Below are positions 4,908-56,672 of a stretch of DNA of 64,000 nucleotides, one piece after another. The position numbers and the translations under genes were made by a program. Each line of letters begins with the position of its first letter. Positions within the stretch are counted from its first letter, which is position 1. The stretch spans positions 3,968,001 through 4,032,000 of the forward strand of contig JAGMUV010000004.1 in the NCBI GenBank assembly GCA_020744425.1. Reading direction: 5' to 3'. The DNA comes from Dactylonectria macrodidyma. Its lineage: Eukaryota; Ascomycota; Sordariomycetes; Hypocreales; Nectriaceae. The notes under the pieces are model-generated. The model saw only the letters and a list, made by a program, of their open reading frames with translations, was not told the origin of the DNA and made no database searches.

Positions 4908-4958
4908 CCTTCAACCTCTTCACTTTTCATCCGATCATCAATATCTCAACCATCCAAG

Positions 4959-6599
4959 ATGTCTCAATTAAATGAAGAGGCAAATATCCTTCTTGCTCTT
5001 CAAGCCCTTCAAAATGACCCAAAACTAAGCATTCAACGCGCTGCATCAATCTACTAAGTCTGTAAAAAAAAGCTTGGTCGCCGACAGAAGGGCATTCTTT
5101 CTCAACGCGATACCATCACTAAATCACGCAAGCTGTCTGATCTAGAGGAACAGATCATTATTCAGTTCATTCTCGACCTGGATTCGCGAGGGTTTCCCCC
5201 GCGACTGCGTGGTGTTGAAGAAATGGCTAACCGACTGCTCGCCGACCGCGACGCGTCACCTGTCGGCAAGCGCTGGGCTTCTAACTTCGTTAGGCGATAC
5301 TAAGAGCTTAAGATGCGTTTTTTTTGTAAATATGACTATTAGAGGGCTAAATGCGAAGATCTGGCCATTATTCGTAACTGGTTTAGGCTTGTGGAGAATA
5401 TAATCGCGAAATATGGTATCGACCTTACTGATATTTATAACTTTGATAAGACTGGCTTTATAATGGGCCTTATTATAAGCAGAATGGTTATCACAGGCGC
5501 AGAAAGGCGTGGAAACCCAAAATCAGTCCAGCCTGGAAACCGGGAATGGGTTACAGTCATTTAGGCAATTAATGCGGAAGGCTGGGCGATCTAGCCGTTT
5601 ATCGTGGTTGCGGGCCAATATCACCTCGCCAACTGGTACTAAGAAAGCAACCTCCCGGGCGATTGGGCTATCGCCACGACTCAAAATGGCTGGACCGATA
5701 ATAAGACAGGTCTTAAGTGGCTAAAGCACTTTGATCAGCACACAAAGGCCCGCTCAACCGGTCGCTATCGTCTTCTGATCCTCGATGGGCATGAAAGTCA
5801 TTACTCGGTTGACTTTGAGAAATATTGCGAAGATAATTATATCATTACGCTTTGTATGCCGCCTTACTCATCTTATCTGATTCAGCCTCTTGATGTCGGG
5901 TGCTTTGGGCCGCTCAAGAAAGCCTACGGTCAAGAAATTGAGCAGTTAATTAGATGCTCTATAACCCACATTTCAAAGACCGAGTTCTTCCTAGCCTTTT
6001 ACGCTGCCTATCAGGCCACTATGATAAAAAGCAATATCAAGGGAGGTTTTAGAGGAGCCGGACTTGTTCCTTTGGACCCGGAAAGTGTCATATCAAAGCT
6101 TGATGTGCAGCTACGGACTCTAACGCCTGTCGAGGAGGAGGCCAGCCTCCCGGACCCTTGGGTCTTAAAGACCCCTAAGACAGTTCTTGAAGCTAGCTCT
6201 TAGTCTGAATACCTTGAAAGACGAATTAGGAGGCATCAGAGTAGCTCCCCGGTATCTATTCTTGAGGCTGTTAAGTCATTGACTAAGGGAACGAAGGCAA
6301 TAATGCATGAGATGGCATTATTAAAGTCTGAGATGCAGATCCTTCGACAGTCAAATGAGGCCCTTAGTAAGCGGCGCAGAGCAAAAAGAACCCGCCTGTA
6401 GAATAGAGGGAAGATGACTCTAGATGAGGGGAGGGAAGCGATTGATCAGATGGATATCAATACGCAGATAGAGGCCGAATTGTCGAGAAGTGGTGGCCGA
6501 GGAGGGTTAGCGCGACTGAGGGAAAGGCGCTGTGGAACGTGCGGAAAGACCGGTCATAATGCGAGAACCTGTGAGGTTATTATTGAGACGTCTAAATAA
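4959..6599 (+). pseudogene. pogo-type transposase with eight in-frame nonsense codons
   Basis: A single frame from ATG 4959 to TAA 6599 (546 codons) would encode an N-terminal HTH region, a DDE domain and a C-terminal CCHC zinc knuckle (CGTCGKTGHNARTC). DDE landmarks are IYNFDKTGF, LILDGHESH and YLIQPLDVG, the usual acidic positions of the pogo group. Eight internal stops interrupt it: TAA at 5055, 5301 and 5640; TAG at 5340, 5562, 5592, 6201 and 6399. There are no frameshifts. Context suggests most replaced glutamine codons (for example before AINAEGW and before PFIVVAG), as expected when RIP turns CAA/CAG into TAA/TAG. The protein is not made from this copy. Confidence 0.9.
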
Positions 6600-32100: not shown

Positions 32101-35100
32101 CAGTAATCTATTAGAGTATCCCCTTACCGTTCAGTTCCTATTAATGGTAGTCAACCGTGTGCAATGCCACCGCTATAATAACTACTGTATGCAGCTCAAT
32201 AAGTATACTAAGCAGGTAGAGTGCCGCTTTGGATTTCCTTACGGGCAGCGCCTCCTAGCCTCCCTTAATAAGGTTCCTCATTCTAAGCACTGGAGTTTTA
32301 GGGGCGAGCGGAACGATAGCTATATTAACCACTATAACCGCTTGCTTACCGTTGTATGGCTAGCTAATACAGATATCTCGCCCTGCACGAGCCTACAGCA
32401 GGTGATCGATTACGCAGCCAAATACTGCTCTAAGTCGGAAAAGAAAAGTGAGTCTTTTGCCCAGATTGGGAAAGCTCTGATGCCTCAGGTCAAGGACCAT
32501 AACCCCCTTATTTCCTTCACGTCAAAGCTCCTAAATCAGCTGGTTGCTGAGCGGGATTACTTAAAGCAGGAGGTTTGCTACTTGCTCCTCGGCCTGCCGT
32601 TACAAAAGGGCTTACGAACCTGCCTATATATTAACTGCTATTATCCTGATAGGCATTCCCACTCCCTATATATAGATAGCGATGAGGTTAATAAGACCTT
32701 CAATATCTATGAAAAGTACAGTCAACGCCCAGAAACCCTAGAGGACCTAACGTACGTTTCCTTCCTCAAATACTGGAATTTCCGCTCTAGGGACCCTTCT
32801 AAGTAGAAGCAATAGCAGCCAGGAAATGTTAACAGCAGGCCTCGTGTATTAGTTTACTTCCCTCGCTATCATGCTGATCCAGAAGGTCAACAGTGGCCAG
32901 ATTACTACTATGTAAAGCTAACATTGAACCACCTACATCGCCGAGTTAATGAGCTTCTGACATTTAACGGCTAACTTTTCAGTTCCTATGTTAAGGCTTT
33001 CTTGCATTGTTGGCAACACCACAGTCATGGTGATGACTATTACGGCTGGCCAAAAGAGGCTCAACTACAGCCTCAAGAGGATTAATATAAGGCTCTGCCT
33101 GTGGAGGAGGAATTTGATGACGAAGACTGGATTCGCCTCGCCGCCCTTTTACCTGACAACCCCCTTACCCAAGAAGGTCTTGACCTACTTGGCCGCCGCG
33201 ATATCAACGTTAATTATAACTAGACACGGCATGTAGGTACTTATCCAGAACTTCGAGACGGCTACTAGAAAGACCTTATCGCTAGCCACCCTATAGCCAA
33301 CGATATAGAGGTCCTTAGCCCTCACTAGCGTAACCAGCTTAACCCATAACAACGGCTCGTGTACGACACCTTCATGGGCCACTTCCAGGCGCAAAATCCT
33401 ACTCAAATCCTTCTCCACGTTGACGGTAGTAGTAGTACAGGCAAGTCCTTCCTTATCAAGGTGCTTTCCTCCCATCTTCAGGCGGCTGCCCTACCGAATC
33501 CTAGCCCTATTTGCCGCGTAGCGCTAACAGGCATTGCAAGTAACCAGATACAGGGTAGTACTATACATTCGTTACTACGTCTCCCAGTACGTGGTGCTTT
33601 TACCGACCTTCCCCCAGCCGATGCGGCCGCCCTTCAGTCCCGCCTACGGCACGTCAAGTACCTCGTTATCGATGAAAAGAGCATGCTAGGGCTTGAGCAG
33701 CTAGCGCGGATCGATTCCTGTCTACGGCAGGCCTTCTCATAGCGTAGCCTCGAGTTCTTTGGTAGCGTAAGCGTCTTGCTGGTGGGCGATTTCTTCCAGT
33801 TACTACCCGTCCGGCAAAAGCCGCTGTATTCGACTAGTACCAGCCTGTCTCCGCTGGAAAGGAGAGGGCAGGTGGCCTATCGGTTATTTGACCGCACCAT
33901 CTTCTTGACCACAGTATAGCGCTAAACTGGCGATGATCAGGCCCAGTTCTGTCAGGCATTGTAGGAATTGTGTGAAGTTAAGTTATCTATACTGTTATAG
34001 AACCTCCTTAGTAATCGGGTACAGGCTAAGCTAATACAGAGCGAGATTGATAGCTTTAGGGCCGCTTTGCGGGTGTATTCTACAAAGGCCTGGGTTAACG
34101 AGTACAATTACGAGCATATGGTGCACCTTAACGACCTGGCAGTATAGGTGGAGGCAAAGAATCGGGGCAATGGCGCGGGGCAGGCGCTAAGCGATAACGC
34201 TGGCAACCTATCTAACAGGTTCCCTGTTACTAAAGGCGCCAGGGTGATGCTTACGACTAACCTATAGTAGCTAGCTGGCCTAGTTAACAGCGCCCAGGGT
34301 ACTGTATACGACATCGCCTAGAACGAAGGCACCAACCTATGGGAAGAACCCCCGGCGGTTATTATGGTGGATTTCGATAGCTACGACGGGCCGCCGTATC
34401 TAACAACGAACGAGGGCAGGATAATCATACCTATCCTTCCAGTCATGCGTGATTTCCTAGTAGGCAACGAGACCTGCGCTCGCACGCAGTTTCCCTTAAT
34501 CGTGGCATTTGCTATTACGGTTCACAAATGCCAGAGCCTAACGAAGGATCAGATAGTTACTGATCTCGCTACACGCGACTTCCAGGCCGGTATTAGTTAT
34601 GTTGCCGTCTCACGAGTTACCTCGCTAGAAGGCCTACTCCTTGAGGCGCCGTTCGACCGCCAGAGCCTCTATAACCACACGCCCACAGAAGGTTTATACG
34701 CCTGCGTTTCCTACGTACTGCGTTTGTGGCTAACTATAAGGCAGGGATGAAGATGCGCCTTGCTGACCAACAACGCCGTCAGGCTCAACAGCTGACCGAT
34801 CCGCCGTATCCACCACGCTACATTGATTAAATGACGTTTTCCTATAAGCTACAAGGAAAGGGGAAATTCGATATACGGTATATAGTTGATTGGGCCTGTC
34901 AGGAAGTGGTAGAGGGACCCCTATGTCTATCAGTCAACTCCCTGACTATAGGTTTGAAGTGGTTTAACAGCTGGTTACTGCTGCAGTTAAAAGGGGGGTT
35001 CTAGGGGGTTCCCCCAGGAGAATTTAATAGCAGGTATACGGTATTTACCCTTCGGGCTGGATATTCAGCCGTTAAGTCCCTTGCCTTGGCAACTTAATGG

Positions 35101-35153: not shown

Positions 35154-38100
35154 CTAATTTTCGGACGAGAGGCGAAAACAGAGAGATTGACCAGACTCGC
35201 GGCCAAATGCAAGTGCTTCACCTGATACAGCTATACGGGAACAGTCAGGTCGGTAATCTGGAGGTAGCCATAGGTAGGGCTCGCCGTTTCTCAGGATCCA
35301 GTTGTGGTCGTGGGTTATACCAATGCCTGACACAGTATCTTTGGGGAAGGCGTTGTATATGCCACGGCTAGTCTGAAGTCCTGCTGAATTCCGTGATAGT
35401 ATGTGAGGGTGATGTCCCTGAAACAGCAGACACCAGCCTGTTTCCACATGCCAGGCTTGTAGGACGCCGTACGCCGATATTGATGCCACCCACTCGCTGC
35501 TGGGTGAGAGGGCTACTGCAGCAACCCAGTCTCTGCGAAGCTGGAAGTTAGTCGGATGGACGATATAGGCGCTGGTACACAAAAAACGCCATCGGGGCTG
35601 GATACTGACGAGTGTTCGTTGTCAAGATTGGAGTGAAGCGTCCGCAAACACATCCCATTCGTAATATCCCAAATTCGGACATTAAAATCCGGATGCGCTG
35701 TTACAATTCGCTTATTATCAAGTGAGAAATTCATAGAGCAAACTTTGCTGCGATAATCAAGGCCATTGCAGCCAGCGCCTTTGAGCGTTTGTCGGTGTGA
35801 GCATGGTGCTGTATCCCAGATCTGTACTCTCAAACCGAAATTTAATGCCACCAGCTTTCCGTCGGGCGAGAAAGTAGCGGAATGAGGACTGTAGTAGTCA
35901 CCGCAATTATGCATGTGCAGGCACCTGCCCGTTGCCGTATCCCACGCTCGTAAAATGCCATTGCGGGACACTGACATGACTTGCTTGCTGTCCGGTGAGA
36001 AGGCGACGACGATAGAATAAATTGTCCCTTCGCCTTGCCTGTCAAGTGTGTGCAGGCACCTGCCCGTCGTCGCATCCCATAACCGCACAAGACCTATTTC
36101 GTGTATCGAGAGGAACTGCTTGCTGTCAGGTGAGAATTTCAATTCACAGACCCAGCCGCAGCCGGATGTGTCTTGGTCGATTCTTAGATGACCTCCAAAG
36201 CAGTGGAGTCCCCTGTCCGTTGCCCACGTCAACACCGTACCATGTTCAGACCCCGATGCGACCCGACTGCCGTCTGGTGAGATAGCTATTGATACGACCA
36301 CATTGTCGTGACCTGGAATCGGAACCTCCTCAGTACTGCGCCCAAGCGTGTGTAGGCGTCTTCCCATCGTCATATCCCACACTCGTATCTCGCCATCCTC
36401 GCACCCTGTCACCATTTGGTCCATATCAGGTGAGAAGATAACTGAATTGACACCATCGACGTCGATCTTGAATCTTTGCAGGCATCCGTCAGCCGTTGCA
36501 TCACTCAGCCTTACCGCGTCGCAATCTACTGCCGCAACCTTCTTGCCATTAAGCGAGAAATCCACTGAAGTCACCGAGTAGTGAGTGAGCTCCAGTATCT
36601 GCCGAAACCTGCCCGGGATTACATCCCACACTCCCACTATACCGTTGCGGAATCCTACCGCTGCCTGCTTGTTAACAGGCGAGAAGGCCATTGATGAGAC
36701 GGAGAAATTTCCTGGGCATGAGAGAACTCGCCCGTCTCTGCCTGTGGCCACATCCCACACCCGTATCGTATCTAAAGATTCCGACAACGACATTAGCCAC
36801 TTCCCGTTGGGAGAGATGACGATTTGTTTTATAGGGCTGCCGCCGCCTCTTTGCGTTTGTATGCACTCGCGTGTTGTAGTATCCCATATTTTTAACATTG
36901 CATCACCAGATACCGATACCAATTGCTTGGCATCATGGCAAAAGGCGACTGATTCGACGTTGTCACCATGGCTCCCAAGCATCTTGAAGCACGCACTAGT
37001 CGCTAGGTCCCATATCCCTACCGTGCCGTCGCCGTAGCCTGACGCTAACCATCTGCCGTCTGGAGAGAAGGTCATTGGCAGCGTAGCTTTGTGGAACTGT
37101 ATGTACTCGAGTATCTTCACACACTCGCCAGTCGCCAAATCCCAAACACGTATTTCTCCATGGAGATCCACGGACGCCACCTGCTTGCCGTCTGCCGAGG
37201 AAACCATTGAAACAATATCTGCCTCATGACCCTCAAGTGTTTGGAGGCATGCGCTCCAGTACGTCTGCATCAATGGCCTTGTGGAAAGCCAGCTTGCCTC
37301 CCCATCATGCGAAATCTGTTTTATCAAACTATGTGTCGGGGAGAAAATGATCGCCAAGGCATGTACTTGAAGCGGGTAAGCCTCGAGTCCTGTTTTGAAT
37401 TGCCGGAGGAATCTCCAGATATCGTAAGCCAACTCGGCTAACTTTGACCGCTGTTGACTCGGCCCACCCTCGTCCCCTATATTGACCTCTGCCAAGGACA
37501 ATATCTTTGCTGCTGCCACAATGCCAGTCCCCAAGCTTCTGAGAAGGCTCAGGGCCTCAATCCAATGAAGAGAATGGTTCTTGAGAAATGTATTAGTTGG
37601 CTCGACATCGAAAAGTTTAGTTTGGCGCGATGCATCATTAAGATGGTCGACCCAATAAATGCAGGAATATCGCACGGTCGCCAACGGATCCGGTTCTGGG
37701 GTTTTGGTATCATTGACCGAGCAGCTAGGCATACGCAATCTGTACATGTCTCGATGCAGTACGTTGCTCATTGTGTGTAGAGACTGCATAAATATGCCCC
37801 GGTGAATTTCTGAGCGACCATGGGGATAGAGGGTGGCAGTTTCTCTGTCTTCCAAGTAATCTTTGGCCGAAAGATGGATGATGTATACTCGTCCGCTTCG
37901 CACAGTGAGAAATGATCCGCATCGCTTTATGATGTCCTCGAGCCCTTCGGCAGTCTTGAACATTCCACTTGGGAACTTGATGAGAGTGCCAAGCTCGATC
38001 AATGTGACTGGTCTATATACAAGTGCGATGGCGGCAAGAATTTGATAAAAGAGATCAAGGTCTTTGGGATGTTCCTTTTTGATCTGTTCCATCATGCGCC

Positions 38101-39133
38101 TATACAGAGGATGAAGACCAGACGGAAACTTTTCCAATGTCTCGAGTGCCCTCCATTGCGGAACTTTCCGTAGATTTTGACAAACCAATGCTACCCAGAG
38201 AAAGGTATCGTCGGCCTTTGTACGCAATGACTCTGTGATGTTGTGTTCCGTGTCAGGGTCGTAACTCTTCAGTCGTGTCAATTCAGCCACCTCGTGGTCA
38301 ATGTACACACGGACAGCAGCAGCGATAGACTTATGATTAAGCTCAAGACTGAGCCTGACCTTTTCATTGGCAGGTTCCAGGAGCTCTTCGATTTCCGGTA
38401 TGTTACGGCTAGAGACGATCCACTTAGTAGAGAAAGCAGACGCATACTCGACGATGAGATTTAGGAGCTGTTCTAGTTCGGTGTCGCATTCGTCAAGGGC
38501 ATCGATGAATACATACGCCCTTCCCACGCTGGGGTCTCTTAGCATGTTGCCAAGTATGCGAGAAAGGGCAAAAAACGCGTTGGGGCCTTCGAAGAGTTTA
38601 CTGCCAGAGTGGTTGTACTCCTTGCGTAGATGTTTGGTGAGCGATTGGTGTTGGATGGCGAGGTGGAAGATAAGCCCTCGCAGTACTGCCGTGCTATTGT
38701 TGAGGTTCGAGTCGGTGCCTTGACAGAAGAAGTATGCGAGCAAGGTCACAGGGGAGGTTGGTTGTTCAGGTTGGTTGCACTGCTCGAGCTCCCGCTCCCG
38801 CTCCAGTTCCTCAGTGATACCGATCATCAGCATCGTCTTGCCTTTGCCTGGGTCGCCTTTGATCCAAAGCAGCCGGCTTTGGTCATCGGTGCGCCACTGT
38901 CGGAAATCCGGGTGCTCGAGAATCCATCTGGACGAGTCCAACAATAAACCACCCTTTGTGTCTCTGATGCGCCTTTTATCGTCTCGCGGGTCGGTCAGAC
39001 GTAGGGCCTTTAAGCAGTCGCTGTCCGCTGTGTCGCAATTGTTGTTGGTGATATTCCCGTGATTGATTCCTAGTTGGAAACCCGCATTCCCGCCTCCGGT
39101 AAAGTTGACGGCATTGCGCGTGCTCATTCTCAA
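35154..39133 (-). CDS. NACHT-WD40 NOD-like receptor with N-terminal amyloid motif
   Basis: Intronless. The first 31 residues carry an amyloid-type signalling motif (AGFQLGINHGNI, about residues 17-28) instead of a large effector domain. NACHT follows: Walker A GDPGKGKT (93-100), Walker B AYVFIDALDE (206-215), and a sensor-like WIVSSRN. From about residue 640 there are 13 divergent WD40 repeats (IRVWDLATGE and similar). The main frame stops at 35513, but the last WD repeat and the conserved tail (WILRNGEPYLWLPPDYRP) continue in another frame to 35154. The shift lies at a six-T run (35581-35586, coding strand), so it is either a one-base assembly error or a real lesion. Such receptors sense ligands through the repeats and seed amyloid in a partner; the HeLo gene at 42843-43622 is the likely partner. 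Confidence 0.9.
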
Positions 39134-40128
39134 CTGCCTGATTTTGGGCTCGGCTGCGGGTCGATGGGCGTTCGTGGGAGTGTTCTCGTGCTCGATGTAT
39201 CAGGGGACGTGGACCGATGTCTGCTTCGCGACTTGAGTACCAGATGAGAGCTGGTCCGCAAGTTGAGTCGTACCCGGTGGTGGACCTCTGTGCCGAATTC
39301 TCGTGTTGGGCGTCTTGATGCGGCGAGGAGGAGATGCCGGTGAGCCTCGATAGACATCCCCGCTTTTTCGTAAGCACAGCCTGGTTGGGCATCCATGTTT
39401 TGTCAAGCCAACAGCCTGTTCTATTAATGAATGTGCAGGTGATTCATGCAACCAACAGCCACGTCCCAAAAGAGTTATCCGTTAGCGCCATGCCAAAGAT
39501 ACAATAACTAAACTACTCTACAGCCGGATACACGCCCGATTTTGAGTTTGTCCTTTGTAATGGACTCGTGTAGATGCAATGAATGCTGAATTTCTTCTGC
39601 GATCTGGTTATGAGACTGAATTGATGACAGAGCATGCTTTTAGGGCCTGGATTTCTCACCGTGTCGCATGTTTTCAAAGCGTTGGGATGACATAAGACAT
39701 GTGGTGACGGTTGCAGAGAGGCTTTCGAATGAGGTGTGAATTTTGACTCACCCATGAAGGAAACGAGTTGGATTCTTACATGCGTAGGATAGTATGCGAA
39801 AATTGAAAGACATCACCTATCTATCGTTTCGTGATCCGGCAATATGATGAACACAGCTGCCGTCTGACCCATAGACATTTCGAAGAAGGGCATACCTAGC
39901 CAACAGTTTTAAACATACACATGAGCGGACACTAGGTTAATGCAAGTGTGCGATTCTAGATTGTATTGACGCTGCTTATATGAATTTATAATTGCCTAGC
40001 GAGAGGAACCGTGTGAGATGTCTGAGATCAAGTCGACCGTCATCCATTCCCAGTCGGATAAAACCTCCAGCCATCGATATAATCAGGCTGTCACGGTAGT
40101 CCACCAATGACTGCAAGGACTCTTAAGC
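39134..40128. other. Intergenic upstream of the NLR
   Basis: About 1 kb with no supported gene. Overlapping short ORFs near 39130-39470 probably lie in the NLR leader. Confidence 0.55.
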
Positions 40129-40837
40129 TTAATCATGATTTAGCGTCTGCTTATTAACTTCCGTTGCTTCTCCATGTGAACCATTCTGAGATTCACTGAA
40201 GGCGAGATTAAGCCTGCTGTAATCCCACTTGCGCGCGAGGAACAGGAAAGCAAGGCTCAGAGCTGGCATCAGGAGATAAATCCAAGATACCAAAGAAAAT
40301 GAAACTGTTGGTCACGCTAATTTGGTCGCCGCCATCGCTCAAGCCAAATGCTACTGGGTAAAGTAACCGCAACAGATTGGTCCACACGGCTAGAATGATG
40401 TAGTCTCAGGCCACACCCACGCGTGCCGCCGCCTCATGACTCCCGTTGAGTGTGCTCATGGCCAGAATGAGCCAAGCGAAGGTCCCGAAAGTGAAGAAAC
40501 CCCATTTGTAGACCGTAGTAGTGTAAGCAGCGGTGAGGTAAGTGAGGACCGAAAACCATGATATGAAAATATTGCAGAGGATTGTAGTCCAAGAAACGTC
40601 AGACAGCAAGCCTAGGGCTAGATTGATGGAGGGAAATGCAACGGCCCAGTTTATGTACTTTGCGTAGAAGACCTGGCGAGATGGACCATTGTCAACTTGT
40701 TTAATTGCGTACCAGCCTAGATCGGAAGCCTCAGCGAAGTAGGTGACAGAGCCAGCCAAGAGCACACAGGTGAATAAGTAGTGGAAAACTCTATTGCTTT
40801 CGGGCGTTGTGAAACAGAGAATGAGGAGTCCAAACTA
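40129..40837 (-). pseudogene. Opsin-related (YRO2/HSP30-like) protein, decayed
   Basis: Homology to the fungal seven-helix opsin family spans FAEASDLGWYAIKQ, AKYINWAVAFPSINLALGLL, YKWGFFTFGTFAWLILA, DYIILAVWTNLLRLLYPVAF and WDYSRLNLAFSE. Lesions: an in-frame TGA (40406-40408) between ARVGVA and DYIIL, and a frame change near 40280-40300 inside the last helix. The first helices are not found upstream of the acceptor at about 40838. Asn replaces the proton-acceptor Asp, and the helix-G segment (FFGILDL) lacks the retinal-binding Lys, so the ancestor was a non-photoactive opsin-related protein. Confidence 0.75.
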
Positions 40838-40859
40838 GGTGATCAAAGCAGATGTTAGT

Positions 40860-40864
<5 letters not shown>

Positions 40865-40905
<41 letters not shown>
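40865..40905. repeat. (AG)n microsatellite, about 41 bp
   Basis: Roughly 20 uninterrupted AG units immediately 5' of the opsin-related pseudogene (in its orientation), possibly within a former intron. Confidence 0.95.
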
Positions 40906-40908
<3 letters not shown>

Positions 40909-41437
40909 GACTGTTCAGAGTGGTGGAAGAGAATCTTGGGTGCAGATGCAGTTTCGGTAGTCGAGGAATGCGCAATACTATGGAGACAGAAGGAGGATAG
41001 CTGAGTCTGATGTGAATAGCTTCTGAGGAATAAAAGACAAAGGGATAGTCCCACCAAGCTCTGCAGAGAGAAAGCACGTCTTTATAGCTCTATTATGCAA
41101 ACATATCAAGTCTCGCTCCTGCTCGAGTTCCGCTCGCCAACTGATTCCGCCGTCATATTGTCTAGGATCCTGATAGGATGTCATGTGTGTTCCGTGGCAT
41201 GAATGAGTGGTCGCCGGAAGCAAAAGTGAGTAAGCAGCAACGCAATGCACCCCTCGCGGGAGCGGATTTTCTGGTAACCCATGTCTTAACCAATGGGAGC
41301 TCCGTCCTGGTCGGAAACAAAGATTGCTTCCGTGGCTTACCTCATCATGGGTGATGATACTGGATATCTGTGATTCCCATCACAGAGTACGGGTGCAAAT
41401 TTCTAGCTGACTTTCTCTCCTAACTCCGCGAGCGAAA

Positions 41438-42442
41438 ATGGATCCCTCCGAAATGACGCGAATTGCCCCAGCGGGCGCTGGTAAAGTCCTTATTGTAAGA
41501 ACCCTGGGCTGTTAGAACCACCTCCCTTTCATATCTGACACTTTATAGGCTTGTGTCGCTTGCAAGACCCGCAAGATCCGGTGCGATGGCAAAATGCCCC
41601 AATGCAATCACTGCATCGCACGTCGCGTGGATTGCATTTATGCGGCTGTCCGAAGATACCGTGGCCCAGGAAAAGGGTGATCTTGAACATTGCGATTTCT
41701 TCACTACATCTGCTAACTCGCTCCTAGTAAAAAGAGGGTAGAGGACTCTACAGAAAGGGCCCCACAAGGACCTTTCCCATTGTCCAGCGCAAATATCTCC
41801 AATCAAGAGACAAGGAACCGATCCATTAACTCAACACTACTCTCGACAGACATTACAAGTAATCTGCATGAAATAGGTGAACTCACCACCAATCATTCAA
41901 CCCTAGCACCATTGGATGCCTTTGTGGTTCCGTCCCAAACGCAAGCGAGCGCCATCAGTCAAATCCCGATGTTCCCCAGATTCATGCTTCCAGGCACATT
42001 CGATACGCACCTGAAGACTGCAAAACGTCACCTCAGTGACATCAGCACTGTCGGACGATTCACGCCGCTTCTACCCCAACATATATCGAGACGGTTGATC
42101 CAAAACTCTTTTTTTGAGATTATGACAGATCATCAGCTACTGGATCTCCCGTCCTTTTTGACACTCATTGACACTCAGTACGCCGCCAGCGACGTTGAGC
42201 CAGCCGGTGAACTAGCTAGGGGGGCCGCTGTTAATGCCTTCATAGCCCTTGCGGTTCGACATAAAACAGCCCCTGGTTCCGAGGCCGAGTTGTCTGGAAT
42301 TGCGGATAGATTCTACCAGAACGTCATTGCAGTTCTCCCGGAGCTCATCTTGAAAGAGCCCAGCTTGCTCTCACTGCAAGCACTCTTAGCCATGGCCATA
42401 TATGCCCAAGCTATACAAGACAGTCGAGCATGTACGGTGTGA
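41438..42442 (+). CDS. Zn2Cys6 transcription factor, C-terminally truncated
   Basis: Three exons (41438-41494, 41549-41676, 41728-42442) keep the frame. Exon 2 encodes a perfect Zn2Cys6 binuclear cluster (CVACKTRKIRC, then CNHCIARRVDC; spacing C-x2-C-x6-C-x6-C-x2-C-x6-C). A Ser/Thr-rich linker and the first third of the fungal-specific regulatory domain follow (LIQNSFFEIMTDHQLLDLPSF, LSLQALLAMAIYAQA given in parts). The frame then ends at RACTV, where relatives continue for several hundred residues. I find no continuing exon before 42842. It is therefore probably a truncated gene, perhaps a DNA-binding-only product. It lies between the NLR and its probable HeLo partner, on the opposite strand. 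Confidence 0.8.
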
Positions 42443-42842
42443 AGGCCAATGCTTCACTCCAGCTGGAATCACTGAGATTAGAATGGCTAGAAGGTACCAC
42501 CATTGCCGATTTGGAAAAGAGCTAGCAGTATACGCGAGTATCTCAAGTGGTGTCAATGCTCAATGAGGACAGAAGTGCAGGATTTTAGACTTCTCTAGTC
42601 GTGATTCAGTGTTAGAGTAAAGGAAGAGCATGATAGAATATATATGTATATATATTCTTTAGAGGCGAGAAGATATTTGACTGGGGCCGCGATCCATGTA
42701 CGAGGGAGGTCAGCATGCTAGCTGATCCGGTCTAGCAAACACTTGTATTAGAATTGAAAAACCAGGCCCAAAATATCCGTCATAATATATTGCTTCGCTT
42801 CGTGCTCGCTTAAACCTTGCGTGAGCCTTTCGTTGATTCAAG
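42443..42842. other. Short intergenic stretch
   Basis: No coding signal; includes a small TA-rich stretch near 42641. The lost 3' part of the adjacent transcription factor is not recognisable here. Confidence 0.5.
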
Positions 42843-43622
42843 TCATCCAAATGAAATCCCGCTGATGGTACCCGTATTGACTCCAAGCTGAAACCCCGAG
42901 TTGTTATCACCCGAGAAGGTGACCGTATTGCTACCAGAAGACGAACCCAAGAGTTTCTTGATAGTCTCGGTCAGCACCTTGTCTTGGTTGGCGGCAACAT
43001 TCCTTAGCTCTGCTAGTTCGGCCTCACTATTCATCCCGGATATTTCCGCCTCGCACAAGCGCCGCTGGCCGTCCAAATCGGGGTGGAGATCCATGAGCTC
43101 GTTGACCAGATCGTGAATATCCTCAATCAGCCTTGAGAGCTGCTTCTTTCCATGCAAAGCCCACTTCACCTTCTCTCGCAACCCAGCTGTTCCCTGGCGT
43201 CTGATAGCAATGCCGTGCATTCTTTGATGAAGCGACGCAGGCACGCCATCCAGATCGGCCGTTGAGTAGTGTGCAGCCAGGCTTGTCTGCGAGGAAGAGG
43301 CATTCTGAGTTCTGTTCGACGCTCGTTCCGCTTCTGTGAATAGGTCCAGTATTTGGCCGAGCAGCCTCTCTGCTAGAGGAACCTCTGTTGAGGAAAGCCG
43401 AGTAGGAAAAAGTGACTGCACCTCATCTAAGGCAGAACCTAGCCCCATGGACTCGCCCCAACGAGTGAGCTGGAGCCTTGCCACATCTAGTCTTAGTAGG
43501 CTGGTCTGGAAGTCTCTGCCAAGACTTCTGCCGATCTGCACATATTCGAAACAGTCGACCGCATTGTTGAAGAGGCCACTCAGGCCGATAATACCAACGG
43601 CAAGACCAGCAGCTTCAGCCAT
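42843..43622 (-). CDS. HET-S-like HeLo-domain protein with C-terminal amyloid motif
   Basis: 259 residues from ATG 43622. The start at MAEAAGLAVGIIGLSGLFNN is chosen because it matches the start of HeLo domains; the 24 upstream in-frame codons are probably leader. The HeLo domain covers about residues 1-225, with the diagnostic stretches CFEYVQIGRSLGRDFQ and LLRLDVARLQLTRWGES. The last 28 residues form a glycine/asparagine-rich motif (SGFQLGVNTGTI) matching the N-terminus of the NLR at 35154-39133 (13 of 22 positions identical). In Podospora HET-S, the C-terminal amyloid refolds on contact with a template and the HeLo domain inserts into the membrane, killing the cell. By analogy this is the death effector of the local NLR. 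The frame is intact. Confidence 0.92.
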   Translation of the reverse strand: MAEAAGLAVGIIGLSGLFNNAVDCFEYVQIGRSLGRDFQTSLLRLDVARLQLTRWGESMGLGSALDEVQSLFPTRLSSTEVPLAERLLGQILDLFTEAERASNRTQNASSSQTSLAAHYSTADLDGVPASLHQRMHGIAIRRQGTAGLREKVKWALHGKKQLSRLIEDIHDLVNELMDLHPDLDGQRRLCEAEISGMNSEAELAELRNVAANQDKVLTETIKKLLGSSSGSNTVTFSGDNNSGFQLGVNTGTISGISFG

Positions 43623-52700: not shown

Positions 52701-52802
52701 CCGGCCCGCACCTGAGAACCCTTGAAGATACACAAACTCCTCATACCGATTCACCTTCTCCTAACACCGAATACTCCAAGCACAAGGGACACACTCAACA
52801 CC
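49729..52802. other. Intergenic, 3.1 kb, no gene seen
   Basis: Largest ORF is 51064-51717 (minus, 217 codons), Arg/Pro-rich with no domain pattern; probably chance in GC-rich sequence. A short GGACAGGATA-type tandem repeat lies near 51618-51656. The last few hundred bases are probably promoter and leader of the coiled-coil gene. Confidence 0.5.
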
Positions 52803-55800
52803 ATGCCGTCTCTCACCATCCGGGGCTATCCGCCCAAGAATGGAAACTCCTCCTCCGAGGGAGCTTCCAGGTCAAACAACACCACCACCACCACCACCAC
52901 AAACAGCAGCAGCAACAACAACTCCGCACCATACAGATCAAGCAACAACAATGCCCCCTCACGGCCAAACAACAACAACGCCATGGTCCCTTCACGGCAA
53001 AACACCGTCAGCTTCGCACGACCCAGAGCCAAGTCACAGTCCCGTCCCCAACCAGACGACGATGGTCTATCCACAGTCTCAGAGGTGTCTACTTCCTCTA
53101 TGACCTCCATGTCCACCGTCACAGACTCTGAATTCTCCCAATCCGACGCATCGTCCACCTTCTCAGCCCCGCCTCGCCAAGCAACAAGACGGCCTACACA
53201 GCAACAGCAACAATCTGCAAACCCCCTCCGATTCAAGCCTCCTACTCTTCGCTTCCGATCCAGGGATGATCCACCCCGAGCTAGGTCTCCTGAACCAATG
53301 GCACCTCGGGGACCATATGGCACAGATGACACCCTCTTTGATTCAGAGCCAGACTTCAGATGGAGCTCATCCAGCCTCTCAGTAACCACGGATGCCACTA
53401 GCGTTGTCTCCGATGACTATGATTGCGAGAGTAAGGCTGTTGAGACGAGGCTTGTTCGGTCACAGTCTATCACCCGGCGGCAGAGCGGGAACCAAACTCC
53501 CCCGGCTCGTCAGTCAGACAAGGACACAAAGGAATCAAAGGATTCCAAGACTCGGTCTCAAAGCCGGGGGCGTACCTTTCACATTCACATCGAGCCTACG
53601 GCACCAGCTCAGCAGCCGCAGCAACAACAGCAACAGCAGCAGCAGCAACAACAACAACTACCTGCCTTGGTTACCCAGCCTCAACAGCAGATGCTTTCTC
53701 ATCAAGGGCAGCATATGATCGCACCCCCTCCCCAGCAGGTCATGGCCCCCCCACAACAGCAGATTATGGCACCGCAGCAGCAGATGATGGCTCCCCAACA
53801 GCAGCAAATGATGGCCCCTCAACAGCAGCCGATGATGAGCCAACCTGGCACCATGGTCCCCCATCATAGCTCTATGATCGCTCAACAGGCTCCCATGGTC
53901 ACACAGCAGGCTCCCATGATGCAACACGCTCCGATGGTTCAGCATAACCCGATGGTTCAGCAACCCCCAGTGATTCAGCATGCCCCGGTGGTGCAGCAGG
54001 CTCCGATGGTTCAGCACGTCCCAATTGTTCAACATGCCCCGGCCGTCACACAACGTGCTGAACCCACCAGCAGACAACGGGCACGCTCTAGGCATGATGT
54101 TGAAGCCACCATGGAAGTCAAAATCGAGGACTTGAAGAAAGAAGTCCAAGTTCTCCGAGACCAAAGGTTTAACATCACCAAGGAGCTTGACGAAGCGCGA
54201 CATCAGCTTTCCTGCATGCAGACTGACAAAGACGAGCTCAGAGAGGAGCGCAACAAGGCCAGAGAAACCAGGGACAAGCTCGACAAGGACCTTGAGGCTC
54301 AGACCCGCGTCCTAGAAAAGACCAAGACCAAGTTTGACGAGCACAAACGGATGTTTGACAAGTTCGAAAAGGACTCCGATGTCTCCATCAGGAGCGCCCA
54401 GAAAGACCGGGAGCTGACACTCCAGAAAGCCAAGAAAGAGTATGACTTGTCATTTGAGCGCATGAGAAGGGACGGCGAGCTGTCACTTGAGAAGGTTAAG
54501 AAGGACCGTGACATCACGTTCGAACGCCTGAGGAGGGAGGGTGAGCTGTCGCTTGAAAAGATGAAGAAGGATCGCGACATGTCACTCGAGAAGGTTAGAA
54601 AGGACCGCGACCAAGCACTCGACAAGCTCAAGAAGGAGCGAGACCAAGCTGTCGACAGACTCAAGAAGGAACGCGACCAGACCGTCGACAAGCTGCAGAG
54701 GGAGCACAGCCAAAAGTTGGACCTGCTCACCCGTGAGCGCGATCAGCTCCTCGAGACGGAGCGCAGCTACGAGAGCAAGGTCAGGGAGCTAGAGGGCCAC
54801 GTCAAGCGCTACAGAGAGTTCAAGGACATTCTCGAGGCAAAATGCGACTCGCTCTCGAAAGATGCAGAGTCAAAGACCGAGACAACCTCCAGGTTCGAGG
54901 CTAAGTCTATCAACCTCGAGCGCGAGCTCGCCGATATCAAGGCCATTCGACAGTCTCAGGAGACGGGCTTTACCGCGCAGATCGCCGGGCTGGAGATTTC
55001 CAAGGAGGCGCTGCAGTTCCGCCTTGATGGCCTTGAGACCGACTTGGTGCAGAAGGCTACCCAGGTTGGCGAGCTGACTGCCGACCGCGACCGCCTTGAC
55101 GCCGACTTTAAGGCGAGCGTCAAGGATATCGAGTCACTGGGCAAGGACATTGAATTGCTAGGCAAGGAGAAGACTGCACTCGAAGAGGAGAAGAACACCT
55201 TCCAGAAGCGGTCCGAGCAGCTGGAGGAGGAAAAGAATGCTCTTCAGAAGAGGTTCGACGATCTAGAGGCCGAGAAGAAGGCCCTCCAAGAGCAGTTCGA
55301 CAGCGTCGATGGCGATAAGAAGAAGCTCGAGGAGCAGGCAATAGCGCTCCAAGCTACCATCGACGAGCTGAAGAAGGACAACGAGGAAAAGGCGGCGCAG
55401 ATTTCCAGCGCTGACGCTGTCAACGGTGACCTCACCACCCGCATTGAGGGCCTCGAGAAGGAGAAGGAAGAGGTCAACGAGCGGATAGACGACCTCGAGT
55501 CCAAGCGCAAGAAGCTGCGGAAGCGAGCTGAGCTGCTCAACAGCGAGAACAAGATGCTGCACGGCCAGATCCAGGAGTTGCTTCGGGACCAGGACGACGC
55601 CTCTTCGCGCGTGCTTCGGCTTTCTGTCGAGGCGCAGAAGCTCCGCGATGAGAACTCGTCGCTCAAGTCGCTGTCCGAGGCTGGTACCAGCGTGACTGGC
55701 AGCACCATGTCGTCGATGTCGAGTGCTGTTAGTGTCAGCACAGCGACGGATGATGGAACCGCCAGTGTAGCCTCGGACGCAACCGAGAAGCCCGACCCTG

Positions 55801-56672
55801 CAACCGTCGAGCCCGCGGAGGCGGAGGCGGAGGCGGAGGTGCCAGTGCCGGAGCCTCCGACCGAGCCGCCGCCTGCGCCTCCGGTCGAGGCCGAGGTGGC
55901 TCCGGCGGAACCGGAGGTAGCCCCCGCGGAACCGGAGATGCTCATCATCGTGGAGGAGGAAGTAGAGGCGGAGGATGCTCCCGCACCGGCACCCGAGCCG
56001 GAAGTGTCTCCGGAGGCGGCACTCCTGGCGCAGCTCCAGGAGCAGAACAAGGAGCTCGAAACTCGCAACGCCGAGCTTCAGGAGAAGGTGGCCAACGTTG
56101 AGTCTCTGACGACGGAGCGAGACGACATCGCAGGTAAGCTCGCTAGCGCAGAGGAAGAGGCTGCGAAGCTGGCCGAGAAGGAAGCCGCTGTCGAGTCTTT
56201 GACGGCAGAGCGTGATGATGTCGCCGGCAAGCTTGCAGCTGCGGAGCAAGAGTCGGCGAAGCTCCAGGAACAGGTCGCGGGTATTGAAGCTCTTACGGCA
56301 GAGCGAGACGACATCGCCCAGAAACTCGACGCCGCCTCTAAAGAAGCAGCTCTTGTCCCGCAACTCCGTGGTGAAAATGCCAGCCTTAACGTACAACTCG
56401 CCGAAGCCAAGAAACAACTCGACGAGGCTCAGAAGGCACAGCAGGCGTCCCTCGACGAGATGGCATCCCTGCAAGCCCAAGTTGCGGCTCTCGTGATGCA
56501 ACTCGGCGCCTCGTCGGCCAACACGGTGCCGCAGCGCAGAAACAGCGGGCGCAAGAAGGACGGCGGCAAGCGAAAGAATGAGATCGTCGTCGTCCGCGAC
56601 CCGGCCACCAAGGGCGGAGCCATGCAAGTCCTTCCCAAACCGCTGGCTCTGTTGGGCCTGTCGCTAACGTGA
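52803..56672 (+). CDS. Large coiled-coil protein with Q-rich N-terminus
   Basis: 1289 residues from ATG 52803 (context caacaccATG; the 27 in-frame codons upstream are probably leader). Residues 1-260 are Ser/Thr/Asn-rich. Residues 270-285 are polyglutamine, followed by a Met/Gln/Pro-rich section with hexapeptide repeats (APMVQH, NPMVQQ, APVVQQ). From about residue 435 to 965 the protein is a long coiled coil, including ten or eleven perfect 11-residue repeats (528-648). An acidic Pro/Glu/Ala linker (about 995-1065) precedes three 31-residue coiled-coil repeats (1099-1191). The basic C-terminus includes RRNSGRKKDGGKRKNEIVVV. No enzymatic domain is seen; a structural or tethering role is likely by composition only. 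Family not recognised. Confidence 0.85.
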   Translation: MPSLTIRGYPPKNGNSSSEGASRSNNTTTTTTTNSSSNNNSAPYRSSNNNAPSRPNNNNAMVPSRQNTVSFARPRAKSQSRPQPDDDGLSTVSEVSTSSMTSMSTVTDSEFSQSDASSTFSAPPRQATRRPTQQQQQSANPLRFKPPTLRFRSRDDPPRARSPEPMAPRGPYGTDDTLFDSEPDFRWSSSSLSVTTDATSVVSDDYDCESKAVETRLVRSQSITRRQSGNQTPPARQSDKDTKESKDSKTRSQSRGRTFHIHIEPTAPAQQPQQQQQQQQQQQQQLPALVTQPQQQMLSHQGQHMIAPPPQQVMAPPQQQIMAPQQQMMAPQQQQMMAPQQQPMMSQPGTMVPHHSSMIAQQAPMVTQQAPMMQHAPMVQHNPMVQQPPVIQHAPVVQQAPMVQHVPIVQHAPAVTQRAEPTSRQRARSRHDVEATMEVKIEDLKKEVQVLRDQRFNITKELDEARHQLSCMQTDKDELREERNKARETRDKLDKDLEAQTRVLEKTKTKFDEHKRMFDKFEKDSDVSIRSAQKDRELTLQKAKKEYDLSFERMRRDGELSLEKVKKDRDITFERLRREGELSLEKMKKDRDMSLEKVRKDRDQALDKLKKERDQAVDRLKKERDQTVDKLQREHSQKLDLLTRERDQLLETERSYESKVRELEGHVKRYREFKDILEAKCDSLSKDAESKTETTSRFEAKSINLERELADIKAIRQSQETGFTAQIAGLEISKEALQFRLDGLETDLVQKATQVGELTADRDRLDADFKASVKDIESLGKDIELLGKEKTALEEEKNTFQKRSEQLEEEKNALQKRFDDLEAEKKALQEQFDSVDGDKKKLEEQAIALQATIDELKKDNEEKAAQISSADAVNGDLTTRIEGLEKEKEEVNERIDDLESKRKKLRKRAELLNSENKMLHGQIQELLRDQDDASSRVLRLSVEAQKLRDENSSLKSLSEAGTSVTGSTMSSMSSAVSVSTATDDGTASVASDATEKPDPATVEPAEAEAEAEVPVPEPPTEPPPAPPVEAEVAPAEPEVAPAEPEMLIIVEEEVEAEDAPAPAPEPEVSPEAALLAQLQEQNKELETRNAELQEKVANVESLTTERDDIAGKLASAEEEAAKLAEKEAAVESLTAERDDVAGKLAAAEQESAKLQEQVAGIEALTAERDDIAQKLDAASKEAALVPQLRGENASLNVQLAEAKKQLDEAQKAQQASLDEMASLQAQVAALVMQLGASSANTVPQRRNSGRKKDGGKRKNEIVVVRDPATKGGAMQVLPKPLALLGLSLT
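53610..53660 (+). repeat. CAG/CAA polyglutamine tract
   Basis: About 16 mixed CAG/CAA codons inside the coiled-coil gene, encoding QQP followed by 14 Gln. Confidence 0.9.
54384..54746 (+). repeat. Eleven in-register 33-bp (11-residue) repeats
   Basis: Units such as SLEKVKKDRDI, SLEKMKKDRDM, SLEKVRKDRDQ, ALDKLKKERDQ and AVDRLKKERDQ follow each other without gaps. An 11-residue (hendecad) period gives a nearly straight coiled coil. Confidence 0.9.
56097..56375 (+). repeat. Three 93-bp (31-residue) tandem repeats
   Basis: Each unit starts with VESLTTERDDIAGKL or a close variant (VESLTAERDDVAGKL, IEALTAERDDIAQKL) and is exactly 31 codons; recent internal duplication. Confidence 0.88.

Follow-up and report, generated by a model that had tools for sequence, protein, structure and literature searches.

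The window analyzed here, a 64,000-nt stretch of Dactylonectria macrodidyma DNA (contig JAGMUV010000004.1, positions 3,968,001–4,032,000; designated C34 among the 77 contigs of the 77.3-Mb genome), encodes a NACHT-WD40 receptor of the NOD-like receptor (NLR) type and a HeLo-domain protein, which lie in tandem on the minus strand with a gap of 3,715 bp and carry matching motifs. Judging from the genes, their domains and motifs and the class of those motifs, the two genes very likely make up a fungal amyloid signalosome belonging to the pseudopalindrome (PP) class, whose motif is akin to the RIP homotypic interaction motif (RHIM); a ligand, oligomerization, templating, membrane killing and a biological role are proposed by analogy. 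The pair is most likely a further case of a known amyloid-triggered cell-death switch. HeLo, NACHT-WD40 and fungal transcription-factor sequences in the window point to a filamentous fungus as well. Its components are as follows:

35154..39127, minus strand: NLR gene (PP-NACHT-WD40, 1,302 aa), with exon 1 at 39127-35606, a predicted intron at 35605-35541 and exon 2 at 35540-35154
39050..39115, minus strand: N-terminal PP motif of the NLR, residues 5-26 (Ses_B 17.6 bits; NxGxQxGxN at 39088-39062)
38405..38935, minus strand: NACHT-type nucleotide-binding domain (NPHP3_N/NACHT), residues 65-241 (PF24883 E 1e-33, PF05729 E 6.9e-7)
35154..37252, minus strand: WD40 repeat region, limits approximate and repeats diverged (PF00400, 9 stretches)
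42843..43622, minus strand: HeLo-domain effector gene, 259 aa, single exon (Pfam HeLo, PDB SMALL S PROTEIN chains, dN/dS)
42864..42929, minus strand: C-terminal PP motif of the HeLo protein, residues 232-253 (Ses_B, PF17046; NxGxQxGxN at 42902-42876)

Matching motifs in the receptor and the HeLo protein

The original prediction, made from the sequence alone, described a candidate NLR/HeLo pair with matching amyloid motifs: a receptor that starts with a 22-residue motif and has no other N-terminal effector domain, and a HeLo protein about 3.7 kb away that ends with a corresponding motif. These claims were borne out by the domain matches, the motif statistics and a genome search with the NLR motif, and the word candidate remains apt. 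In the receptor the motif is followed by NPHP3_N/NACHT and then WD40 sequence; 64 residues stand ahead of the nucleotide-binding domain, and in the Pfam search the first 58 residues after the Met matched no family but Ses_B, with no other N-terminal effector domain seen. The partner was identified as a HeLo protein by Pfam HeLo (PF14479), which covers residues 6–206 and is over its cut-off (E 1.6e-46, 159 bits). Consistent with this identification, its best PDB sequences were three SMALL S PROTEIN chains (E 4e-36 to 3.9e-32), the remaining 12 listed being at E 0.27 or worse. It does not belong to the HeLo-like (HELLP) class, the domain of which has the accession PF17111 (PMC9815663): that family was not matched, and HeLo, Ses_B and PAH_ZNF598 (E 0.21) were alone in being listed at E ≤ 1. 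An AlphaFold model of the HeLo protein alone was discarded (mean predicted local distance difference test score, 39.7).

The two motifs are identical at 13 of 22 residues. At the DNA level they agree in 41 of 66 bases, and 8 of the 13 identical residues are written with different codons; as read from these alignments, therefore, the likeness is kept at the protein level and is not that of a recent DNA copy. The alternative to related motifs is a pair of unrelated stretches that are alike by chance or low complexity; unrelated low-complexity segments had been named beforehand as one outcome that would speak against the pair. Both motifs are indeed G/N-rich and the receptor copy is under the Pfam cut-off for Ses_B, but the alternative is largely refuted and we regard it as extremely improbable: the local alignment of the two 60-residue ends scored 75, a value reached by none of 20,000 composition-preserving shuffles of both (best, 57), and two codon-written copies of NxGxQxGxN were found in the window against 0.03 expected, with none of 100 dinucleotide shuffles holding two. 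Plain shuffles gave two protein-level matches to this core in 60 windows, a rate equal to expectation. Further counterevidence is that each motif occupies the protein end at which this class would place it, and that the sole other genome match of the NLR motif is the neighboring HeLo gene.

Assignment of the motifs to the PP class

The published PP core, NxGxQxGxN (PMC9815663), is present exactly in both motif copies. Relative to the longer consensus of 2012, FxGx(x)NxGLQLxGxNxGxL (PMC3321046), both copies read FxGxxNxGFQLGxNxGxI, that is, with F for L before the Q, a final I for L and one x fewer between L and G. The HeLo copy scored 39.4–45.6 bits with Ses_B (PF17046; cut-off, 23.2 bits), its last 35 residues giving 45.6 bits and E 5.9e-12, and in a search with the full protein the model matched residues 230–255 with E 5.3e-10. 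Ses_B was the sole Pfam family listed for either protein end at E ≤ 10. PP motifs have been recognized as being carried N-terminally by an NLR and C-terminally by an effector clustered with it within 20 kb (PMC9815663), a distance within which the window pair falls, and in NLRs they are mostly at positions 5–9 (PMC9815663, section 19), a range that includes residue 5, where the NLR motif starts. Because both motifs fit the published core and no other Pfam family was listed, we assign them from their sequences to the PP (pseudopalindrome, RHIM-like) class, which is neither HET-s nor new.

The original prediction had judged the motif to be unlike the classical HET-s repeat, which agrees with the lack of any PF11558 or PF17108 match in either protein or end in the Pfam search, a search in which most weak matches are dropped by the filters of HMMER. 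It had further offered a PP- or sigma-like subclass or a new one; of these, PP stands on the core match and Ses_B, and sigma and a new class fall away. Pfam includes both a sigma model and a RHIM model. The sigma class, which has the submotifs GxGxQFNxx / GGTQNINT in three repeats (PMC3321046), does not fit, based on our reading of one palindromic unit in each motif and on Ses_B alone being listed by Pfam. A likeness to RHIM had also been suggested: RHIM of RIPK1/RIPK3 has, like PP, a G-hydrophobic-Q-hydrophobic-G core, a likeness already in print (PMC7885112, PMC5485727). What the two motifs share with RHIM is the GxQxG core; under the same filters, neither end had a RHIM family listed at E ≤ 10. 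A four-row profile of the motif had no match among PDB chains at E ≤ 10.

Other PP-like motifs in the genome

Searched against the genome, the Ses_B model matched five places. Three were over the cut-off, namely the window HeLo gene, a HeLo gene on contig C21 and a fragment on C16; below it were the window NLR and a stop-containing fragment on C1. In 14 control genomes the model matched in one, and in none over the cut-off. The HeLo motif alone found six places, which were the same five and C11:45461 (E 0.02), and the NLR motif alone found two, the NLR itself and the window HeLo gene. A relaxed PP pattern, applied by script to 45 loci, found only the two window copies and C16 (among NACHT matches outside those loci, the N-terminus read was that of L065).

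The C21 gene (C21:326456-327241) encodes a HeLo paralogue that is 68% identical to the window HeLo protein and just over the Ses_B cut-off, with a degenerate motif core (GLQPE in place of GFQLG). No NACHT match among the at least 110 listed lies within 150 kb of it, a search that did not take in other receptor types, and it is an apparent orphan effector. Two fragments carry the motif and have no recognized effector domain: one at C16:552071-552151, which by eye is similar to sequence beyond the stop at the 3' end of the C21 gene, and one at C1:6463812-6463904, which contains a stop. At C11:45461-45541 (4950-5375, minus strand, of locus L053) a 141-aa frame has a PP-like end with a GMQIG core, scoring 12.1 bits with Ses_B, below the cut-off. 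In the part of this frame that was read there was no recognized effector domain, and reverse-transcriptase-like frames were seen nearby by eye; it is a possible unlinked effector exon.

These places bear on the idea that the receptor acts mainly via another, unlinked PP effector and that its HeLo neighbor is incidental. The HeLo motif query did reach the C11 frame, the C21 paralogue and the C16 and C1 fragments, and CgPNT1 is a known case of an NLR that drives two effectors (PMC5485727). However, none of the four was reached by the NLR motif query, those on C16 and C1 are fragments, and the C21 core is broken, all of which makes this arrangement very unlikely.

Integrity of the pair

Several points weigh against a working two-gene system. 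The NLR motif on its own is under the Ses_B cut-off (17.4–17.7 bits, with E 0.0037 at 17.6 bits), the C-terminus of the NLR depends on a predicted intron, and the genome searches scored loose first-look candidates only (seven for Ses_B, six for the HeLo motif and two for the NLR motif), so distant copies can be missed. In addition, the partners are not immediate neighbors, as the following lie between them:

40409-40765, minus strand: bacteriorhodopsin-like gene fragment (Pfam 6.3e-7)
41783-42442, plus strand: weak Fungal_trans match (0.0044, below cut-off)

The intron matters for the possibility that the pair is a relic, with motifs that are real by descent, an NLR broken near its 3' end and signaling lost. 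In favor of decay are a shift of the open frame near 35,6xx, the separation of the partners by gene fragments and the already degenerate motif core of the C21 paralogue. The mechanically called open reading frame (ORF) of the NLR stops at 35513, and WD40-like sequence continues in a different frame down to 35154. Opposing the relic are exon 1, which has 1,174 codons without a stop, and the predicted intron (65 nt, phase 0), which has a CTAAC branch-like site followed by the six last intron bases and accounts for the frame change, the joined protein staying in WD40 register across it. The best reading of the ORF at 35154-35582 is thus as the last exon of the NLR, and a frameshift was considered and dropped in favor of the intron. 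Because this predicted intron accounts for the late frame change, the NLR gene is probably intact.

The HeLo gene also argues against a relic. Compared with the C21 paralogue over 258 codons, dN (nonsynonymous) is 0.19 and dS (synonymous) 1.02, the latter near saturation, giving a dN/dS of about 0.19; the last 43 codons are looser, with values of 0.33 and 0.51. The gene thus looks to be under selection, and we regard the relic as unlikely and a working PP pair as the better reading of the locus. Since the WD40 units of the NLR are diverged (best internal match, 19/38 aa and 58/120 nt), it is not, by its sequence, a receptor with highly conserved, nearly identical WD40 repeats; a repeat scan found 31-nt units alone, mostly 65–77% alike and 90% in the best pair.

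Other features of the window were also noted. There is a GA-repeat near 40870, between the partner genes. Just past the 3' end of the NLR are helicase-like fragments at 33359-34750 on the plus strand (Pfam helicase weak, 0.033, for 34364-34750), which are presumably reminiscent of a PIF1/Helitron remnant. A 1,317-aa frame at 52719-56672 on the plus strand has weak coiled-coil matches only in Pfam and falls within a region of strong AT skew (0.31 at 54–56 kb).

HET-s-type relatives in the same genome

A HeLo search of the genome gave at least 31 matches, of which 15 were fetched, and a NACHT search gave at least 110, of which 20 were fetched together with 10 further match stretches. Five HeLo proteins were scanned: those on C6 and C31 were over the cut-off of HET-s_218-289 (PF11558), that on C32 was below it, that on C18 had no match, and the PP paralogue on C21 matched Ses_B. 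HeLo and NACHT genes adjoin one another at several loci. On C32, and at a C21 locus where the HeLo gene has seven stops, they are divergent and about 260 bp apart; on C31 they are in tandem, and on C1 they are divergent with two stops in the HeLo gene. The C6 gene (L005, C6:1516329-1516973) is a HET-s-type HeLo gene with both repeats, with no NACHT match nearby and, by eye, no receptor-like frame of at least 180 aa within about 10 kb.

The window NACHT domain is 49–58% identical to those of NLRs with N-termini labeled by eye as HET-s-like, and 51–57% identical to those of nine fetched receptors labeled as having longer, different N-termini. Among the HET-s-type NACHT labels, all assigned by eye, Pfam backs L042 only (at E 1.3e-4, which is under the cut-off); L030 and L031 have an N-terminus in common that gave E 0.25, L038 gave E 0.32, L035 had no match, and L027 and L029 were outside the scan. 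The N-terminus of L065 looks HET-s-type too, but it carried the label x in the analysis. In a tree of 30 NACHT rows, the window NLR is inside a group of 26 (82/94), without firm placement in it. In the HeLo tree (12 rows, L011 and L014 having been dropped), the two PP rows are outside a group of seven (85/84), again without firm placement; six of the seven are labeled HET-s-type and L012 is not. Forcing the window NLR together with the seven HET-s-type-labeled NACHT rows was rejected (approximately unbiased test, p-AU 0.00017), a result that says little on the window NLR because the seven rows form no single group themselves.

Two amyloid codes thus occur within the HeLo family of this genome, HET-s at other loci and PP in the window pair, and related NACHT receptors have a HET-s-type look that was judged largely by eye. 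We tentatively raise the possibility, which we think doubtful, that receptor and effector exchanged their signaling motif together, between HET-s and PP codes within the same HeLo and NACHT families, and that the C21 paralogue with its broken core is a by-product or decoy. Dating or orienting such a swap was given up, the trees leaving the placement of the window NLR and the PP HeLo proteins loose. A joint exchange, if true, would be a natural experiment in which an amyloid code was rewired without cross-talk.

Comparison with known systems and proposed mechanism

The 2012 definition of PP drew in part on two HeLo proteins encoded next to STAND (signal transduction ATPases with numerous domains) receptors (Daskalov 2012, PMC3321046). 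Those pairs are like the window in having a HeLo protein with a single C-terminal PP and an adjoining receptor with an N-terminal PP, but the receptors of the two Arthroderma HeLo pairs are NB-ARC-TPR proteins and that of the window is NACHT-WD40 (PMC3321046). Later, PP had 98 matches in 579 HeLo-related proteins, a set that includes HeLo-like and sesA relatives (Daskalov 2015, PMC4518210). A 2022 survey found the main PP motif (NLR07) in 296 NLRs, 37 of them with matching genomic neighbors, and tied PP to pore-forming and enzymatic effectors (PMC9815663). NACHT-WD was listed in 2014 among the receptor types with such motifs, in a passage that does not pair motif with type (PMC4986451). The overall picture is one with which PMC12881547, PMC12258605 and PMC7889193 agree.

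Two characterized systems are close to the window pair. As in PNT1/HELLP of Podospora and Chaetomium, PP is on both receptor and killer and the genes are clustered, whereas the effector there is HeLo-like and the receptor NB-ARC-TPR, in contrast to HeLo (PF14479) and NACHT-WD40 here; the SBP lipase partner of Chaetomium has no counterpart among the motif matches of this genome, in which the C11 frame was partly read. As in NWD2/HET-S of Podospora, a short N-terminal amyloid segment on the NACHT-WD40 receptor goes with a C-terminal one on the HeLo effector, but NWD2/HET-S has two HET-s repeats (R1/R2) in the effector and R0 in the NLR, while the window has one PP motif and no HET-s_218-289 match, with its genes in tandem and 3.7 kb apart.

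The proposed mechanism is taken from these two systems (PMC3321046, PMC7885112, PMC5485727), the window itself contributing the anatomy. Binding of a ligand to the WD40 region would cause the NACHT receptor to oligomerize, bringing together its N-terminal PP motifs, which would form a short amyloid and act as a template for the PP motif at the HeLo C-terminus. Once converted, the HeLo protein would uncover its N-terminal helix, relocate to the plasma membrane and cause cell death, in a defense or non-self response. In support of this scheme, prion formation by PP motifs and their activation of a HeLo-like killer have precedent (PMC7885112).

The pair opens no new class. Single PP motifs on HeLo proteins, clustered PP receptor and effector genes and NACHT-WD receptors with such motifs are already in print. 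No explicit description of HeLo-PP paired with PP-NACHT-WD40 was found in the portions of the literature searched, supplements lying outside them, but the pairing would be expected within those published data sets. If working as we read it, the pair would have a NACHT-WD40 receptor acting on a HeLo-type killer of the PP class, in a genome that also has HET-s-class HeLo genes beside NACHT receptors, and such a set would be suited to testing whether RHIM-like and HET-s amyloid codes are insulated from one another on related receptors and killers.

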